A DNA stretch of 64,000 nt, taken from assembly GCF_003991875.1 (NCBI RefSeq), contig NZ_CP031423.1:1860001-1924000 (forward strand), read 5' to 3'. This document shows positions 6,000-12,096 of the stretch, piece after piece. Origin of the DNA: Microbacterium lemovicicum. Its GTDB lineage: Bacteria > Actinomycetota > Actinomycetes > Actinomycetales > Microbacteriaceae. The notes under the pieces were generated by a model that worked only from the letters and a program-made list of their open reading frames with translations, ran no database searches and was not told the DNA's origin. Each line of letters starts with the position of its first letter. Within the stretch, counting starts at the first letter, position 1. A program made the position numbers and the translations under genes.

Positions 6000-7316
6000 G
6001 TGACAGACCGCGCCGGAACGATCCTCCTGCGGTTCGGGCCCATGGTCTACGGGCCCACCGTGCTCTTCGCGCTCGGCGAGGGTGCGGTCATCCCCCTCAT
6101 CCCGGTGATCGCCTCGCGGCTCGGCGCGGATGTCGCGACCGCCGCCCTCATCGCCTCGGCGCTCGTCGTCGGGCAGCTCGTCGGCAACCTCCCCGCGGGC
6201 TACGCCGTGGCGCGCGTCGGCGAGCGGATCACCATGGTGATCGCCGGATCCGTCGCCCTCGTCGGCTTGGCCGGGCTGCTGCTCGCCCCGAGTCTGGGCG
6301 TGTTCGCGGCATCCATCTTCGTCATCGGCTTCTGCGCCGCGGCGTTCGGGCTGGCGCGCCACTCCTTCATGACGACCCGTGTGCCGCTCGCATTCCGCGC
6401 GCGGGCGCTGTCACTGCTGGGCGGATCGTTCCGCCTCGGCATGTTCGTGGGGCCCTTCATCGCCGCCGCGCTGCTGGCGGTGTTCGGCGACGAGCACGCG
6501 GCGGTGTGGTTCTTCGCCGCCTGTCTCATCGCGACGATCCTGCTCGTGCTCCTCGGTCCGGACCCGGAGAAGCAGCCGCCGCTGACAACCGGCGCGATTC
6601 CGGATGCTGCGGCCTCCGGTCCGCGCACGGCCACCGAGTCCTCCCGCCGCGCCGGCTTGCCGGACGACAGCGGCGAGGCGGTGACCGGGTCGATCCCGAC
6701 CGTCGAGCGCGTCGGCGTGTTCCGGACGATGTGGCGTCACCGGCGGGTGCTGTCGCGACTGGGGCTGGCCGCGGCATCCCTGTCGGCCATCCGCTCGACG
6801 CGCCAGGTGGTGCTGCCGCTGTGGGGCGTGTCGATCGGGCTCGACGCCCAGACGATCGCGCTCGTCGTGGGCGTCTCGGGGGCGATCGATTTCGCCCTCT
6901 TCTACGCCAGCGGACAGGTGATGGACCGGTTCGGCCGCCTGTGGGCCGCCCTCCCGGCGATGCTGCTGATGAGCGCCGGCTTCATCGCCCTGGCCTTCAC
7001 CCACGACCTCGCGTCGTCGGCGATGTGGTTCGCGCTCTTCGCCGCCGTGCTCGGCGTCGGCAACGGCCTGTCGAGCGGCATCCTGCTGACCCTCGGCGCC
7101 GACGTCGCTCCACCCGCCGACCCGGCGCCGTTCCTCGGCTCGTGGCGGACGCTGACCGACGCCGGCGGGGCGGTCGCGCCGCTGCTCGTCTCGGGGATCG
7201 CCGCCGTGTCATCGCTCGCCATCGCGACCGGGGCCGTCGGCGTGCTCGGGCTGCTGGGCGCCGGCGCATTCTTGCGGTGGGTTCCGCGCTTCGTGCCGCG
7301 CGCGACGCCGGACTGA
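6000..7316 (+). CDS. MFS transporter
   Basis: 438 aa from the GTG at 6000; in-frame ATG 5973 and GTG 5991 are alternatives, but 6000 fits the TAACGT promoter. About twelve membrane segments are split by a hydrophilic loop of roughly 70 residues (about 185-255). The first half has the MFS motif-like PAGYAVARVGERIT and RHSFMTTRVPLAFRARALSLLGG; the second has QVMDRFGRLWAALP. The substrate cannot be inferred; the fold is of the drug or metabolite efflux type. It is divergent from prfB. Downstream lies the left boundary of the 7.3-11.8 kb island. Confidence 0.88.
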   Translation: MTDRAGTILLRFGPMVYGPTVLFALGEGAVIPLIPVIASRLGADVATAALIASALVVGQLVGNLPAGYAVARVGERITMVIAGSVALVGLAGLLLAPSLGVFAASIFVIGFCAAAFGLARHSFMTTRVPLAFRARALSLLGGSFRLGMFVGPFIAAALLAVFGDEHAAVWFFAACLIATILLVLLGPDPEKQPPLTTGAIPDAAASGPRTATESSRRAGLPDDSGEAVTGSIPTVERVGVFRTMWRHRRVLSRLGLAAASLSAIRSTRQVVLPLWGVSIGLDAQTIALVVGVSGAIDFALFYASGQVMDRFGRLWAALPAMLLMSAGFIALAFTHDLASSAMWFALFAAVLGVGNGLSSGILLTLGADVAPPADPAPFLGSWRTLTDAGGAVAPLLVSGIAAVSSLAIATGAVGVLGLLGAGAFLRWVPRFVPRATPD

Positions 7317-7342
7317 CCGCCGCGCGCGCGGATATGCGTCCG

Positions 7343-7432
7343 CCGGTCAGCGCAGGGCGGTCCGGCTCGTCGCCGTCGCCTCGAGTGCGAGCCCGTCGGG
7401 CACGAACAGCGACACCACTGGTGGGTACCACC
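7343..7432. repeat. Left copy of 90-bp direct repeat (displaced 3' end of pilus gene)
   Basis: This copy matches 11664-11753 at 87 of 90 positions in the same orientation. Read on the minus strand it encodes the last 27 codons and stop of the TadE-like gene now ending at 11668. All three differences are synonymous (CCA/CCG, CGG/CGC, CTG/TTG). It is best explained as the original gene end, cut off when the island inserted. Confidence 0.85.
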
Positions 7433-7434
7433 TC

Positions 7435-7848
7435 CCCGCGATCGCCGCGCAGCGGCAGCGCCGCGTCGTGCAGCTCGACAACGTCGTCACCCTTGACAGG
7501 AAGATCAGCGACCTGAAGGCTCGGCTCGGTCGCGTGACGGTGCGCTGGTCAGGAAGCGGGATGCCTGACGCAGCCTACGAGGCCGCGGTGGCGCAGCTCG
7601 ACGCCGATCTAGCCGGGCTGGTGGAACGGCGCCGGCATGCCGGTCCTGCGCCCGCCGTCGAGGTCGACCCACGCGAGCTCGCTATCCGCTTGACCGAGCT
7701 GTGGGATGACCTCACCGTCATCGAGAAGCGCAACCTGCTGCGCCCGCTCATCCACCGGGTGCGGATCCTGAAACCCGCCCGTCAGGGCAAAGGGGTGTGG
7801 CGAGACCGCGTCGACGTCATACCCGCCTGGGGGCCCGCTGCCGGTTGA
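7435..7848 (+). pseudogene. Serine recombinase, C-terminal remnant
   Basis: The frame is open from inside the repeat and a GTG at 7468 would give 126 aa. The sequence matches the C-terminal coiled-coil and end domain of large serine recombinases: repeated helices (LDRKISDLKARLGRV, LDADLAGLVERRR) and then LWDDLTVIEKRNLLRPLIHR followed by VRILKP. The catalytic resolvase domain, recombinase domain and most of the zinc ribbon are absent, so it cannot catalyse recombination. The truncation falls at the boundary of the 90-bp repeat, which suggests the deletion or insertion event occurred there. Confidence 0.75.
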
Positions 7849-8108
7849 TGCACCCGACGCCGCCGCCGCACAGCTGTCCAGGTGCCCTGGATTAGCAACA
7901 GGATGAGTCCGCCGATGACGAGGACGACTGAGGTGGTCGTCCAGCCACCTAGGAGTCCTGGAAGCAGTCCGAGGAGAACGAATACAATGCCCAGAGCAAA
8001 CCCGCCGCACATCTGAGCTGTCGCACTCGTGCCCTCATCCGAATCGGTCACGGCTTCATCTTGCACCTCTGCGACAATCAGCGCGTAAAGCCAGCGTGGG
8101 AGCGACAC
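7782..8108 (-). CDS. Small membrane protein, two helices, unknown
   Basis: 108 aa from a GTG; a later GTG at 8051 (VTDSDEGT) is an alternative that would avoid overlap with the plus-strand gene at 8061. Two membrane segments are visible, ALGIVFVLLGLLPGLLGG and SVVLVIGGLILLLIQG, then a very basic tail (AVRRRRRVHQ). The 3' end overlaps the recombinase remnant in convergent orientation by 67 nt. No family is recognised. It is island cargo and existence as an expressed protein is uncertain. Confidence 0.5.
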   Translation of the reverse strand: MSLPRWLYALIVAEVQDEAVTDSDEGTSATAQMCGGFALGIVFVLLGLLPGLLGGWTTTSVVLVIGGLILLLIQGTWTAVRRRRRVHQPAAGPQAGMTSTRSRHTPLP

Positions 8109-8369
8109 GACTTCGCCACCTACGCCGCGGCACTTCCCGGCGTTCGTCGTCTGATTCGGGCTCAGCGCATCCTTCTGATCTGCGCCGGCATCAGTGTTGG
8201 CGTTCCGCTCCTGATTGCCCTCACCGGCGGGCCGATATTGCTGATGGCTTTGACCCCTATCGTCACGGCGGTCCTCACCGCAGCATCCGGCTTTTGCCTG
8301 CAGCGAGCCGCTGCGGTCGAACGACTCGCCATCGCACGGTGGGTGATCGCCGCCGAGCGGTTCTCCTAG
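8061..8369 (+). CDS. Small membrane protein, unknown
   Basis: 102 aa if the TTG at 8061 is used; no other start is available in frame and no good ribosome-binding site is seen. The protein has a polar N-terminus (KPAWERHDFATYAAALPG), then two hydrophobic segments around ILLICAGISVGVPLLIAL and GPILLMALTPIVTAVLTAA, and ends RWVIAAERFS. No family is recognised. It lies 31 nt upstream of the next plus-strand gene, so the two may be co-transcribed. The weak start keeps confidence low. Confidence 0.45.
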   Translation: MHLCDNQRVKPAWERHDFATYAAALPGVRRLIRAQRILLICAGISVGVPLLIALTGGPILLMALTPIVTAVLTAASGFCLQRAAAVERLAIARWVIAAERFS

Positions 8370-8400
8370 TCACGCAGGAGGCGCCTGGTATGAAGGCTGC

Positions 8401-8877
8401 ATGAGTGGATGCGAGGGCCGATGGCTCCTGCTCGGTCTTCTCGGCGGAGTCGCCCTCGTGGTGCTGTGCCTTGGACGATGGATCTTCGAATTCATGACGG
8501 ACTTCAACCGCGCGCAGGGCGGTTTGAACGGCCGCCTAGCCGGCGCTGCCCCGAAATGGTCTTCGCACACCATGGGCATAGGTATGGCGATCTGCGCTGT
8601 CTTGAGCTACTTCGAGTGGGCTCGCGCCTGCCCGCCGTTTCACCCTGACATCCTGGCCGTGTCGGTGGTTGTTGGCTCCCTGCTCCTAGCGACGGTTGCC
8701 ACGGCTCTACTTGCTCGGAGAAGGTGGACGGTCGACCACATGTTCGATGCCGGTGCGATCTTGTCGCTGGGTCAAGAACATGCGGTGCGAGCCGCAAGAC
8801 GAAGGGCGGCTCCGGGTCCCGTAGCCCTCATGGCGGTCGCCGTCGCGCTGTTCGCCCTTTATGCCTTCATCGCTTGA
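8401..8877 (+). CDS. Membrane protein, about four helices, unknown
   Basis: 158 aa from an ATG. Hydrophobic segments lie at about residues 8-28, 57-72, 82-103 and 137-157, with a conserved-looking cytosolic stretch between the last two (RRRWTVDHMFDAGAILSLGQEHAVRAARRR). No family is recognised. It is island cargo. Codon use is less GC-biased than in flanking chromosomal genes. It is followed by the first 41-bp repeat and converges with the gene at 8955. Confidence 0.65.
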   Translation: MSGCEGRWLLLGLLGGVALVVLCLGRWIFEFMTDFNRAQGGLNGRLAGAAPKWSSHTMGIGMAICAVLSYFEWARACPPFHPDILAVSVVVGSLLLATVATALLARRRWTVDHMFDAGAILSLGQEHAVRAARRRAAPGPVALMAVAVALFALYAFIA

Positions 8878-8914
8878 GCACAGCTCAGATCTCAGTTCGG
8901 CCCTGGAGGTGCTG

Positions 8915-8955
8915 TCGGTTGACGAACAACGACGTGCAACTTAAGACGACGACAC
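8915..8955 (+). repeat. 41-bp island repeat, copy A
   Basis: The unit starts TCGGTT and ends CGACAC, with ACG, ACAAC, ACG, GCAACTT and GACG at fixed spacing between. It matches copy C at 34 of 41 positions and copy B at 33 of 41. It is an imperfect palindrome: outer TGTCG/CGACA and inner GTTG/CAAC. It occupies the convergent gap between the genes ending at 8877 and 8955. Confidence 0.7.
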
Positions 8956-9416
8956 TAACGGCTACGGCTTGAGAAGTCGGGACGCAGCCTCTGCGGTCGT
9001 CGTCGCGTTCGGGCGAGTGGCCGCAGTTCTCCATCGAGGAAGGCAAGTGCCGCGAAGGCTGTTACATGATTCACGGTCACCCGCTGGCTTCCCATCGGAA
9101 GGGCGTAGGCGGGGTTACGGAATGTTGCCGCGATGCCATGAATCAGCCCCAGCTCTTCTTCGGAGAGCTTCAGAACCCGCTCGGCTAAATCGTCTTCGCC
9201 GTAGTCCCACAAGCTTCCCGCGGCTTGGGGAGCCGAGAAGAAAACTCGGAGGGCCTTGTACCCCCTCATGGCGGCGACGATTGTCGGGTCGAAGCGCGCA
9301 GCCATGGCTGGATCGAGAACGACTTCGTCGCCCTTCTCGAGCAGCTCGTCGTAGTCGTAGATGACTGCGTCCTCGCCGCTGTCTTCTACCTTCGAGCTCG
9401 TTCCCGACACATCCAT
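8955..9416 (-). CDS. Unknown protein, island cargo
   Basis: 153 aa. The start is the ATG of MDVSGTSSK, placed 7 nt after a TATCGT element. The protein is soluble and acidic at first (EDSGEDAVIYDYDELLEKGD). A helical middle follows (LDPAMAARFDPTIVAAMRGY, then LWDYGEDDLAERVLKLSEEE), and the C-terminus is basic (RTRRRPQRLRPDFSSRSR). No family or motif is recognised. It is flanked by 41-bp repeats A and C, one on each side, as a single-gene block. The annotated start could be further upstream, but that would run through repeat C. Confidence 0.65.
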   Translation of the reverse strand: MDVSGTSSKVEDSGEDAVIYDYDELLEKGDEVVLDPAMAARFDPTIVAAMRGYKALRVFFSAPQAAGSLWDYGEDDLAERVLKLSEEELGLIHGIAATFRNPAYALPMGSQRVTVNHVTAFAALAFLDGELRPLARTRRRPQRLRPDFSSRSR

Positions 9417-9423
9417 GTTCGAG

Positions 9424-9429
9424 ACGATA
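9424..9429 (-). promoter_or_regulatory. -10 element TATCGT, leaderless start
   Basis: TATCGT on the minus strand is followed by 7 nt and the ATG at 9416, with no Shine-Dalgarno sequence. Confidence 0.5.
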
Positions 9430-9523
9430 GTCCCGATGTTGTGAACGGTTGCGACCAAAGGTCGTGACCGAAGTCTGCCCGGCAGGGACGTCGACCTTCG
9501 GGACACACCGTCCCTTCCTGTGA

Positions 9524-9564
9524 TCGGTTCACGCACAACTACGAGCAACTTTCGACGGCGACAC
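9524..9564 (+). repeat. 41-bp island repeat, copy C
   Basis: It has the same orientation and layout as copy A (TCGGTT start, ACAAC, ACG, GCAACTT, GACG, CGACAC end), with 34 of 41 positions identical. It sits in the 248-nt divergent gap, about 100 nt upstream of the sigma factor gene. The rest of that gap shows only the -10 at 9424-9429 and a GAACTT at 9632. Confidence 0.7.
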
Positions 9565-9664
9565 GACCCTCGTCGGGACGGAGCCGGAAAGTCGCACCGG
9601 GGCGACCCAGACAAGACGAAGAAAATGCCGTGAACTTAACTGGCCGGATCGGACAATACCCAGT

Positions 9665-10261
9665 GTGAGCATGCACGACGGCCAGATCATGACCCGATCC
9701 ATCACGGAGCGGGCGGCGTTCGCGGAGCTCTATGACCGGCATGAACGCAGCGTCTACCGGTACGCGGCCCGCCGGCTCGGTCCGTCACAAGCAGACGACA
9801 CCACCTCCGAGACATTCGTGGTGGCCTTCGCCCGCCGTGCGGACTTCGTAGGGCACGACGCCCGCCCTTGGCTGCTTGGGATCGCGACCACGCTCATGCA
9901 CAAGTTCGCTCGACAGGAAGCCCAAGCATGGAGGGGGATGCTGGCCGCTGACCTCGCCAGGGTCGACAGCGATCAGTTCGAAGCTGTCGACGACCGGTTG
10001 GACGCCGGAACGACTGCGCAACAGATGGGAGCGACACTGGCGCGGCTTCCGGCAGGTGACCGCGACGCCCTTCTGCTGCACACCTTTGGCGACCTCGACT
10101 ACGAGGGCATCAGCAAAGCGCTCAGCATCCCGATAGGCACTGTCCGCTCACGCATACACCGTGCCCGCCGAAAACTCCGCGCCGCGATCGACCCGGCTTA
10201 CCGCCCAGAGAAGGAAGCACATCATGGACGAGATCTCGCTCCTGCGCCAAGTGCGGAATGA
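9665..10261 (+). CDS. ECF-type RNA polymerase sigma factor
   Basis: 198 aa from GTG 9665; ATGs at 9671 and 9689 are possible. Region 2 is visible at about residues 15-75 (AFAELYDRHERSVYRYAARR, FVVAFARRADF) and region 4 at about 125-175 (LARLPAGDRDALLLHTFGDL, then DYEGISKALSIPIGTVRSRI). GACAAT is 7 nt before the GTG, and a GAACTT lies at 9632, a sequence typical of ECF -35 elements, so autoregulation is possible. The 3' end overlaps the next gene by 38 nt, so the pair is translationally coupled. The partner is probably its regulator. It is carried by the island between repeats C and B. Confidence 0.88.
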   Translation: MSMHDGQIMTRSITERAAFAELYDRHERSVYRYAARRLGPSQADDTTSETFVVAFARRADFVGHDARPWLLGIATTLMHKFARQEAQAWRGMLAADLARVDSDQFEAVDDRLDAGTTAQQMGATLARLPAGDRDALLLHTFGDLDYEGISKALSIPIGTVRSRIHRARRKLRAAIDPAYRPEKEAHHGRDLAPAPSAE

Positions 10262-11387
10262 CATCCCGGAGAGGGCGCCGGAGGACGTCGCTCGCCGACG
10301 GGAGGCCCTGCTCGCGCACATCGATGGTGCGGCCAACCCCATAGCGAGCTCGCACCGCCACAGCACGCGCACCGCTACATGGCTTGGAGTGTCGCTGCTG
10401 ACAGCTGCGGCCGTAGCGATCGCACTGGCTATCGCCCCGAACGTGCTGAGCGGGAACACCATCAACAACGGGAACGACCAGATCGTGGCCGCGCCCAGCG
10501 CCGTCCCGACGGCCACCGCTGACGTCATGGTTCCCGCCTCAGTAGTGACGGTAATGAAGGCAGCCGCGATCGAAACCTTGAAAGTCAGCGACCCCGTCGT
10601 GGGCCCAGGCCAGTATTCGCTCATTCAGACCAACGCTGTTGGCCGCACCTCGGGGTCCATCGAGGCCGACCGAGCAAAGATCGAAGCCCAAGGCGGTGAA
10701 TCGAAGGAAGAGGACTTGGTGTCGTATCTGCAGGGCGTACGCGAGGACCTGTATATCCCGGCGAACCGCGACAACGAATGGGTGTGGGTGCGTCATGCAC
10801 CGACCGTCGTGGAGACCTTCGGACCACGATCCGAAGCACTCGCCCAAGAAAGCGAGACTTTCCCTGGTGGCACCGAGCGGCTACCCGGGGGCGCGTTCAC
10901 CAGTGGCGGGTCGACGATTGACAGCTACTACATCGGGACGGAGCCCGTGCGAGGGTACGACGCTCTTCCCCGCGACCCGCAGCAGCTTCTCGGCACGATC
11001 TACGACCTGACAGTGGGTCAGGGGCAATCCCCCGATGGCGAAGCTCTTGTATGGATCGCCGACCGACTTCGCACGGGAACCGTGCCGGCCGATCTTCGGG
11101 CCGCCCTCTACGAGGCCGCCGCAATGATCCCAGGAGTCACCATCACCGAGCAGCAAGCAACCCTCGACGGGACAACTGGCATCGCCATCGGGCGCGCCGA
11201 GCCCTACGTCTATGACGACGTCAACGGGACGCGCGGCGGCTTTCGCCAAGACATCATCATCGATCCCACCACGGGCCAGTTCATCGGCGAGCGAGAGGTA
11301 CTCCTAAAAGCCTTCACCGACATGCCAGCAGGCGCCGTGACGCGATCGACATCCGTCACCACTACCGTCGTAGACTCTGCACCCTAG
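10224..11387 (+). CDS. CU044_5270-type membrane protein, probable sigma-factor partner
   Basis: 387 aa from an ATG with GAGAAGGAAG upstream. A cytosolic N-terminus of about 50 residues (MDEISLLRQVRNDIPERAPEDVARRR) precedes one membrane segment (GVSLLTAAAVAIALAIAPNV). The large external domain has the tail typical of this family (PYVYDDVNGTRGGFRQDIII, then DPTTGQFIGEREVL). Genes of this type are commonly coupled to ECF sigma genes in actinobacteria and are presumed to be anti-sigma-like, although the inhibitory activity is largely inferred from gene pairing. It is the last gene of its island block and is followed by repeat B. Confidence 0.82.
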   Translation: MDEISLLRQVRNDIPERAPEDVARRREALLAHIDGAANPIASSHRHSTRTATWLGVSLLTAAAVAIALAIAPNVLSGNTINNGNDQIVAAPSAVPTATADVMVPASVVTVMKAAAIETLKVSDPVVGPGQYSLIQTNAVGRTSGSIEADRAKIEAQGGESKEEDLVSYLQGVREDLYIPANRDNEWVWVRHAPTVVETFGPRSEALAQESETFPGGTERLPGGAFTSGGSTIDSYYIGTEPVRGYDALPRDPQQLLGTIYDLTVGQGQSPDGEALVWIADRLRTGTVPADLRAALYEAAAMIPGVTITEQQATLDGTTGIAIGRAEPYVYDDVNGTRGGFRQDIIIDPTTGQFIGEREVLLKAFTDMPAGAVTRSTSVTTTVVDSAP

Positions 11388-11663
11388 TGAGACGGCAACA
11401 TATTTGGGAAGCCCGAGTTTGAGGCCGCGCCTACTGTCGGTTAACGCATGACGACGTGGAACGTAGGACGGCGACACCTCGCTCATCGCATTCCGGAACG
11501 GACATAATCTCGACATTGTGTCGCGTCATACAGAGCGCCTCGCTATCGACTAGCTGGGGCGGGTCTGAAGCTTATTGCAGCGGCACGCCACAAAGCGGAG
11601 GACTCTACAGCGAAATGCTTCGTCGCAACGGCCACACGGACGCGCGCGCAGGTTCGGGTCAGG
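11388..11663. other. AT-richer gap at the right end of the island
   Basis: No credible coding sequence was found. The stretch holds the third 41-bp repeat (11437-11477) and is otherwise unremarkable, with visibly lower G+C than the adjacent pilus genes. It ends where the right copy of the 90-bp repeat begins. Confidence 0.6.
11437..11477 (+). repeat. 41-bp island repeat, copy B
   Basis: It matches copy A at 33 of 41 positions in the same orientation, keeping the TCGGTT start, the ACGACGTG core and the CGACAC end. It lies 49 nt after the stop of the CU044_5270-type gene. Confidence 0.65.
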
Positions 11664-11753
11664 CCGGTCAGCGCAAGGCGGTGCGGCTCGTCGCCGTCGC
11701 CTCGAGTGCGAGCCCGTCGGGCACGAACAGCGACACCACCGGTGGGTACCACC
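11664..11753. repeat. Right copy of 90-bp direct repeat (functional 3' end of pilus gene)
   Basis: It encodes the last 27 codons of the TadE-like gene in frame. It differs from the left copy by three synonymous changes, including a TTG leucine codon that is rare in this genome. This would fit a gene end supplied by the incoming element. Confidence 0.85.
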
Positions 11754-12096
11754 GCCCGGCGACCGTTACCCGCGCCGACGTGCCGTCCGGCGTGCCGGCC
11801 GCGACGACCACGGCTCCTCCCCCGACCTCGGCGACCAGCGCTCCCGCCTGGTCCGCCACACCGTCGTCGGTGAGCACCGCGAGCGGATCGGCGTCGGTGA
11901 CGACCAGGGTGAACCCGTCCGCGCCCGCGAGAGCCGCCGCATCCGCCAGCGCATCGAGCCTCTTCTGCGCCAGGTACAGGCTCGTCGCGTTCACGCACAC
12001 CAGCACCGCCACCAGCGCGAGCAGGCAGTAGCCGATCGTCAGGATCAGGATGCTGCCCTCCTCGCCCTCCGCGGCGGCCGTCCAGCGCCGCATCAC
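11668..12096 (-). CDS. Rv3654c-like TadE/TadG-type pilus protein
   Basis: 142 aa from GTG 12096, which overlaps the upstream stop by 2 nt; ATG 12093 is equivalent. The N-terminus is the short basic leader and membrane segment of Tad pseudopilins: GEEGSILILTIGYCLLALVA. Next come SLYLAQKRLDALADAAALAG, as in TadG/Rv3654c proteins, and a compact beta-rich domain. It is probably a minor pilin or secretion accessory protein at the membrane. It is the last gene of the pilus operon. Its final 27 codons are duplicated at 7343-7432 because of the adjacent island. Confidence 0.85.
   Translation of the reverse strand: MMRRWTAAAEGEEGSILILTIGYCLLALVAVLVCVNATSLYLAQKRLDALADAAALAGADGFTLVVTDADPLAVLTDDGVADQAGALVAEVGGGAVVVAAGTPDGTSARVTVAGRWYPPVVSLFVPDGLALEATATSRTALR

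Follow-up and report, generated by a model that had tools for sequence, protein, structure and literature searches.

Why do three similar 41-bp sequences, all in one orientation, separate the gene blocks of a small island beside a tad pilus gene of Microbacterium lemovicicum? The island lies in a stretch of 64,000 nucleotides (contig NZ_CP031423.1, positions 1,860,001 to 1,924,000; hereafter the window, whose own numbering is used), and an initial annotation had read its repeats as the palindromic borders of exchangeable gene cassettes. Comparison with related genomes suggests instead that the repeats are attP-type attachment (att) sites of a family of large serine recombinases (LSRs) associated with tad loci, and that the series from an LSR remnant through a half-site D to copies A, C and B is a composite island; we give this reading a probability of roughly two in three (0.68). 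The features on which it turns are the following.

7432 to 7848, plus strand: C-terminal fragment of an LSR, N-terminus missing; 58% to the intact LSR of a congener (genome G028) over 133 residues
7837 to 7853, plus strand: half-site D, weak, overlapping the LSR stop codon
8915 to 8955, plus strand: repeat copy A, putative attP-type site
9524 to 9564, plus strand: repeat copy C
11437 to 11477, plus strand: repeat copy B

The coordinates, single orientation and fixed spacing of the three copies were exact in the initial annotation, which was also correct that they part an unknown gene (A to C) from an operon of a sigma factor and its partner (C to B). Thirty of the 41 columns are invariant across A, C and B; the pairwise identities are, as had been given, 34/41 for A–C and 33/41 for A–B, to which we add 32/41 for C–B. 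By chance no match would be expected (100 dinucleotide shuffles of the window), and the best 41-mer pair in the island reaches 34/41, a value that 30 mononucleotide shuffles never approached more closely than 29. The edges of the repeat are sharp, the 20-nt flanks being alike at just 3-8 of 20 positions except for the left flanks of A and B (10/20), and the variable columns cluster in the middle of the repeat (9/20 in the middle, 2/21 at the ends; Fisher p = 0.015, with a split that we chose). A search of the complete genome (3,555,647 bases, one contig; G000) allowing up to three mismatches returned the three known copies only, and a reversed control pattern returned none. The repeat is 41 bp long and stands next to a recombinase gene, within the range of LSR sites (up to about 50 bp); this length supports the att-site reading because the attB and attP sites of serine integrases, which have inverted arms, do not as a rule exceed 50 bp (PMC4111918). 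Separately, two 13-bp sequences that are 12/13 identical, TCGGGACGCAGCC (8977-8989) and TCGGGACGGAGCC (9573-9585), lie 3' of copies A and C at differing distances, and the TCGGGACGGAGCC form occurs again at 10933-10945, within the partner gene.

The recombinase is represented by the fragment that opens the island, encoding the final 138 residues of an LSR; neither this fragment nor the weaker half copy at its stop codon had appeared in the initial annotation. The fragment alone matches no Pfam family (7468-7848) and no NCBIfam family, and relatives of it (threshold 1e-10) are present in 6 of 366 genus genomes, its own included. The intact G028 protein carries Resolvase, Recombinase and Zn_ribbon_recom domains and resembles annotated phage serine integrases in 12 records (33-38% over 55-76% of the protein). 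Plasmids and viral contigs yielded no relative of the fragment, nor any of the G028 LSR (E 1e-40 for the plasmid search).

In three congeners the LSR ends at a fragment of tadA/cpaF, near residues 152-162: G028 (L106 5976-6445 and L113 1765-2505), G141 (L118-L119) and G239 (L123-L124). In G028 an insertion of ~103.5 kb, with the LSR at one end, divides tadA, whose residues 2-152 are in L106 and the rest in L113; from the few genes near the LSR, we read this insertion as a putative prophage. In G141 and G239 no more than 10 bp separate the end of the LSR (41-42% to that of G028) from a tadA fragment beginning at residue 160-162; these two LSRs face the C-terminal part of tadA, and the G028 LSR faces the N-terminal part. 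The tadA starts that are absent from the G141 and G239 fragments were not located. Judged by these junctions, the tad pilus locus would be a shared target of the LSR family and is likely an insertion hotspot.

The G028 insertion also provides the comparison that links the repeat to the recombinase. The stop codon of the G028 LSR lies at the tadA junction, and the sequence overlapping it, ATCGGTTAGCGCACAACACCGTGCA (L106:5977), matches the left part of the repeat at 19/24 positions for A and C and 18/24 for B. A left-half match of at least 19/24 is unique in 192,001 bases of the G028 contig, both strands included, with one other place reaching 18. A gap-tolerant profile model of the repeat, R1, by which the window's own copies score 43-45 bits, likewise finds the junction as its sole match across ten G028 stretches (11.0 bits). 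The far junction has GCAACTGTCGACG (L113:2458) in the matching orientation, 24 bp into the element. This sequence agrees at 12/13 positions with the core of the right half of copy C (columns 22-34); it is the sole such match in 1.15 million position-by-query trials, for a sub-window that was chosen post hoc. Within the window, half-site D, GCTGCCGGTTGATGCAC, spans the stop codon of the LSR fragment and matches A at 14/17 positions, B at 12 and C at 11; apart from the copies themselves, only D and a place at 10139 reach at least 14/17 on either strand. Read in the frame of the LSR, D, A, B and the G028 site end in Gly-stop and C reads Gly-Ser. Copy B and tadA have ATGACGACGTG in common, a likeness found by eye and without statistics. 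Taken together, these matches are most simply read with the repeat's left half as a recombinase-side half-site and the complete 41 bp as a putative attP-type site, the right half being the weaker part of this argument.

The island would then have been assembled as follows. The left half of the 41 bp would be the recombinase-proximal half-site, lying over the recombinase stop codon, and the right half would be part of the element's opposite end. The start of the island, the LSR remnant with D, would be the end of an LSR element, after which come three blocks (D-A, A-C and C-B), each ending in an att site of the same orientation. Such accretion could have come about through repeated LSR integration at one place followed by loss of DNA. 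The composite may then have entered the genome next to tadG, bringing a second tadG 3' end along, by homologous recombination in tadG at one border and by illegitimate joining into the LSR gene at the opposite border. The repeats, the LSR remnant, the sequences resembling half-sites at both ends of the related insertion and the island-free MFS-tadG neighbourhood of relatives are observations; that an LSR acts on the three copies, how the events followed one another and how the island came in are inferred. The remaining features of the island and its borders are listed here.

7342 to 7444, no strand given: left copy of direct repeat D1, tadG 3' end, beside the major facilitator superfamily (MFS) gene (direct-repeat search and junction comparison)
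8061 to 8369, plus strand: small open reading frame (ORF), no family
8401 to 8877, plus strand: ORF of 158 aa, Pfam matches all below threshold
8955 to 9416, minus strand: gene of the A-C module, of a sparse uncharacterised family, start codon assumed (homologs, alignment)
9665 to 10261, plus strand: extracytoplasmic function (ECF) sigma factor (Sigma70_r2, Sigma70_r4_2; TIGR02937 above cut-off)
10224 to 11387, plus strand: sigma partner, CU044_5270 family protein (NF038083 106.7 bits, cut-off 100)
11663 to 11765, no strand given: right copy of D1, tadG 3' end, part of the complete gene (direct-repeat search and junction comparison)
11668 to 12096, minus strand: tadG-like pilus gene (Tad, PF13400), beside an MFS gene in relatives

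The repeats sit in a 4.3-kb island placed between the MFS gene and tadG, and the segment 7342-11765 has a GC content of 64.1% compared with 71.0% and 71.8% outside. Its modules measure 0.6-1.9 kb: D-A holds small ORFs, A-C one gene and C-B the ECF sigma factor with its CU044_5270 partner, a family of which the literature searched makes no mention. The 3' end of tadG is duplicated as D1 (94% over 103 nt); the left copy adjoins the MFS gene and joins the recombinase gene in its middle, while the right copy completes tadG. We found tadG in 17 of 28 searched genomes, this one included. An MFS gene adjoins it in 9 of the 16 foreign loci (flanks of ~1.5 kb), the other seven having no MFS match within the flank, and the MFS-tadG neighbourhood occurs without the island in relatives. 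In one of them (G010) the aligned MFS and tadG parts are 22 bp apart, and the MFS frame stays open past that point. The D1 duplication may mark the entry of a foreign piece that brought its own tadG end; homology-facilitated illegitimate recombination is described in PMC3240628.

Several results weigh against attributing the repeats to an LSR. The copies had been described as imperfect palindromes, a description that shuffling does not bear out: measured against 1000 shuffles, the best self-complementarity is not significant in A (p = 0.11), C (p = 0.985) or B (p = 0.135), its centre differs among the three copies, and as single-stranded DNA they fold weakly (z −1.8 to +0.7, both strands considered). 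Dyad (inverted-repeat) symmetry around a central crossover, the usual mark of LSR sites, was not found, and we lower the claim of membership among LSR sites because of it. By profile the ATCGGTTAGCGCACAACACCGTGCA match is weak (E 0.043 in 72 kb for its 11.0 bits), and half-site D scores just 2.6 bits. The right-half match depends on where the repeat is cut, as columns 20-34 at 12/15 give 14 matches in the G028 stretches, and columns 22-41 at a minimum of 14/20 give 82, with the G028 end absent among the matches listed. The spacing at the right G028 junction exceeds that of the repeat by ~20 bp, judged by eye, and ~13 bp of tadA, also by eye, are missing between the two junctions; the reaction in G028 was therefore not clean, or its product has since decayed. 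Five LSR relatives, examined over 32-60 kb each, contain no second copy of their LSR end (best other 27.4 bits) and no array near the same recombinase, such as had been expected, and an R1-like site is found at none of four more distant LSRs (32-37% to the remnant; 3.4-kb loci).

Recurrence of the repeat in arrays with other genes had also been anticipated, and it was not found in any of three sets of genomes. No sequence with up to three mismatches is present in 97 other relatives, and the exact gapped pattern, which recovers only two of the three own copies, is absent from 365 other genus genomes. Searching 148 genomes with R1 under strict filters gave a match at E <=1 in 81, this one included; the best among the 147 foreign genomes scores 18.1 bits (G276, E 0.013 per genome), with a second foreign match in G073, and the foreign matches are about what chance gives across so many genomes. 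The G276 match, which is aligned and scores above that of G028, has no LSR relative in the surrounding 20 kb, a further point against an LSR origin. The conserved ends of the repeat, scanned in 84,980 species genomes, gave seven single, scattered matches, and in viral contigs one scan found a single match in 1 stretch and another in 19. We dismissed the matches at these 27 loci from viral and genome contigs as chance: with an ungapped 41-bp weight matrix, which cannot score highly any match with a different spacing, they reached at best 20.0, compared with 51-53 for the true copies; one of them, in a Microbacterium record (L013), is a single match whose spacing differs from that of the repeat. 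Applied to five of the 27 loci (L004, L011, L013, L015 and L016), R1 found no match. DNA searches in plasmids and phages found no relative at the repeat site, one being empty and another giving only E 0.3-0.9; a further search of this kind matched the partner gene twice and the sigma gene once (H13, in 9719-9890).

Among the alternatives, the one that survives best is a true LSR-based cassette array, an integron analogue in which circularisable, non-autonomous and exchangeable modules, sub-kilobase in its boldest form and with their own sites, are captured successively in trans by the adjacent LSR. We consider it unlikely. It would account for a row of same-orientation sites beside an LSR end, for modules of one gene or operon without a recognised recombinase, and for an A-C gene whose stop touches site A. 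The family of this gene is scattered: of 394 genomes of the class 5 have a homolog, and of 396 of the order 7, this one included; its protein has the motif LWDYGED...PLARTRRRPQ (in alignment A3, LWDYGEDxLAxR...HVxAFAA...PLARTRRRPQ), no match in NCBIfam or PADLOC, no Pfam match for the longer window ORF or three homologs, and no relative in viral contigs and plasmids. Same-orientation repeats flank the gene in three of eight loci (the window, G075 and G363), above all 64 control placements, and the A-C gene itself looks mobile. The flanking repeats differ in sequence from genome to genome, however, and so do not form one site family, and five of the eight loci have none. The five LSR relatives lack a repeated LSR-end site, and joining of attP to attP is not normal for serine integrases, which also counts against such an array. 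What stands of the exchangeable cassettes first proposed is that recombination sites delimiting gene blocks beside a recombinase best explain the repeats; their recurrence in arrays elsewhere does not. The flanking-repeat test on four homologs of the sigma operon gave 34.6 bits for G007, slightly more than the highest control (33.7), which the other three did not reach.

Some A-C loci have features of their own. In G075 (L078 4271-5979) a 1.67-kb block of small genes that includes the A-C homolog is bracketed by near-palindromic direct repeats of 38 bp, whose 27-bp pattern occurs only twice in that genome at up to three mismatches. In G363 (L085 4190-4775) the gene has a relic of a TIGR03252 5' end on one side and a complete one on the other, with overlapping stop and start codons, and the homolog in G143 (L092) has an internal TAG.

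Somewhat less probable still is that the repeats are divergent target duplications, the blocks having come singly by homology-facilitated illegitimate recombination, each with a diverged local 41-bp copy. We keep this explanation alive because in G363 the start of a DNA-glycosylase gene (TIGR03252) is present twice (97 bp, 81%), forming the repeats on either side of the A-C gene; the 38-bp repeats around the G075 gene (84%) and the position of the whole island between tadG copies agree with it as well. It leaves unexplained why pieces of both 41-bp halves stand at the ends of an LSR element, and why three copies have equal sharp edges and better conserved ends.

We regard it as very improbable that the repeat is a regulatory sequence (a sigma promoter or regulator site) or a terminator near genes of one regulon. 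Copy C does lie ~100 bp upstream of the sigma gene, and A and B come after gene ends, but on the plus strand the latter two face no obvious gene start, the genome holds no other copy at up to three mismatches, and the folds are weak, no promoter or terminator scan having been made. The homologous sigma/partner operons of four congeners (G007, G018, G032 and G028) are without the site, which told against the regulator-binding alternative raised initially and led us to reject a sigma-dependent promoter. A dispersed miniature inverted-repeat transposable element, also raised at first, would be a short repeat in several copies as here, yet is hardly credible with no copy outside the island at up to three mismatches and a palindrome that is not significant. 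An RNA element was rejected because Rfam has no match to 7300-11800 up to E = 1.

If the LSR-site reading is true, an unexplained repeat would be tied to a definite recombinase family and to a target, the tad pilus genes in this genus, and the reaction would have a predicted site, a predicted partner and a predicted polarity. One-gene modules between LSR sites would also make accreted islands harder to tell from integron-like cassettes. No such system was met among the papers listed by literature searches on serine-integrase cassette arrays and LSR composite islands. Phage serine integrases, such as those of Streptomyces phage Darolandstone and Arthrobacter phage Maja, belong to the same family as the G028 LSR as distant members, by comparison of the proteins. 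Integrons resemble the island in that sites of one orientation separate single genes next to a recombinase, but the recombinase here is of the serine and not the tyrosine type (no search for IntI was made), the attC motif RYYYAAC...GTTRRRY is absent by reading, and there is no strong single-strand fold; with motif absent and folds weak we rejected an attC identity, in agreement with the initial annotation. Composite or accreted islands, such as tandem integrative and conjugative elements (ICE), integrative and mobilizable elements (IME) and cis-mobilizable elements (CIME), have blocks separated by att copies, and the blocks of the window differ from theirs in being very short and without a recognised mobility gene. 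The established counterpart of the island is therefore to be sought not in integrons but in LSR islands with several att sites, the staphylococcal and enterococcal cassette chromosomes (SCC and ECC). These differ in their target, which is rlmH there and MFS-tadG (window) or tadA (G028) here, in that the modules here are just 0.6-1.9 kb and the recombinase of the window is broken, and in that the G028 LSR is no Ccr protein, its weak match to CcrB (80.8 bits; CcrC 43.2, CcrA 15.8) falling far under the cut-off of 900. According to PMC6222049, ECC islands of enterococci have 50-bp att repeats, with multiple attR sites in 16 of 32 elements, and such multiple sites are also reported for complex SCC elements. 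The likeness to the island lies in this weak CcrB resemblance, an LSR-type recombinase, direct-repeat att sites of ~50 bp and several att-type sites per island, as those of the window would be.

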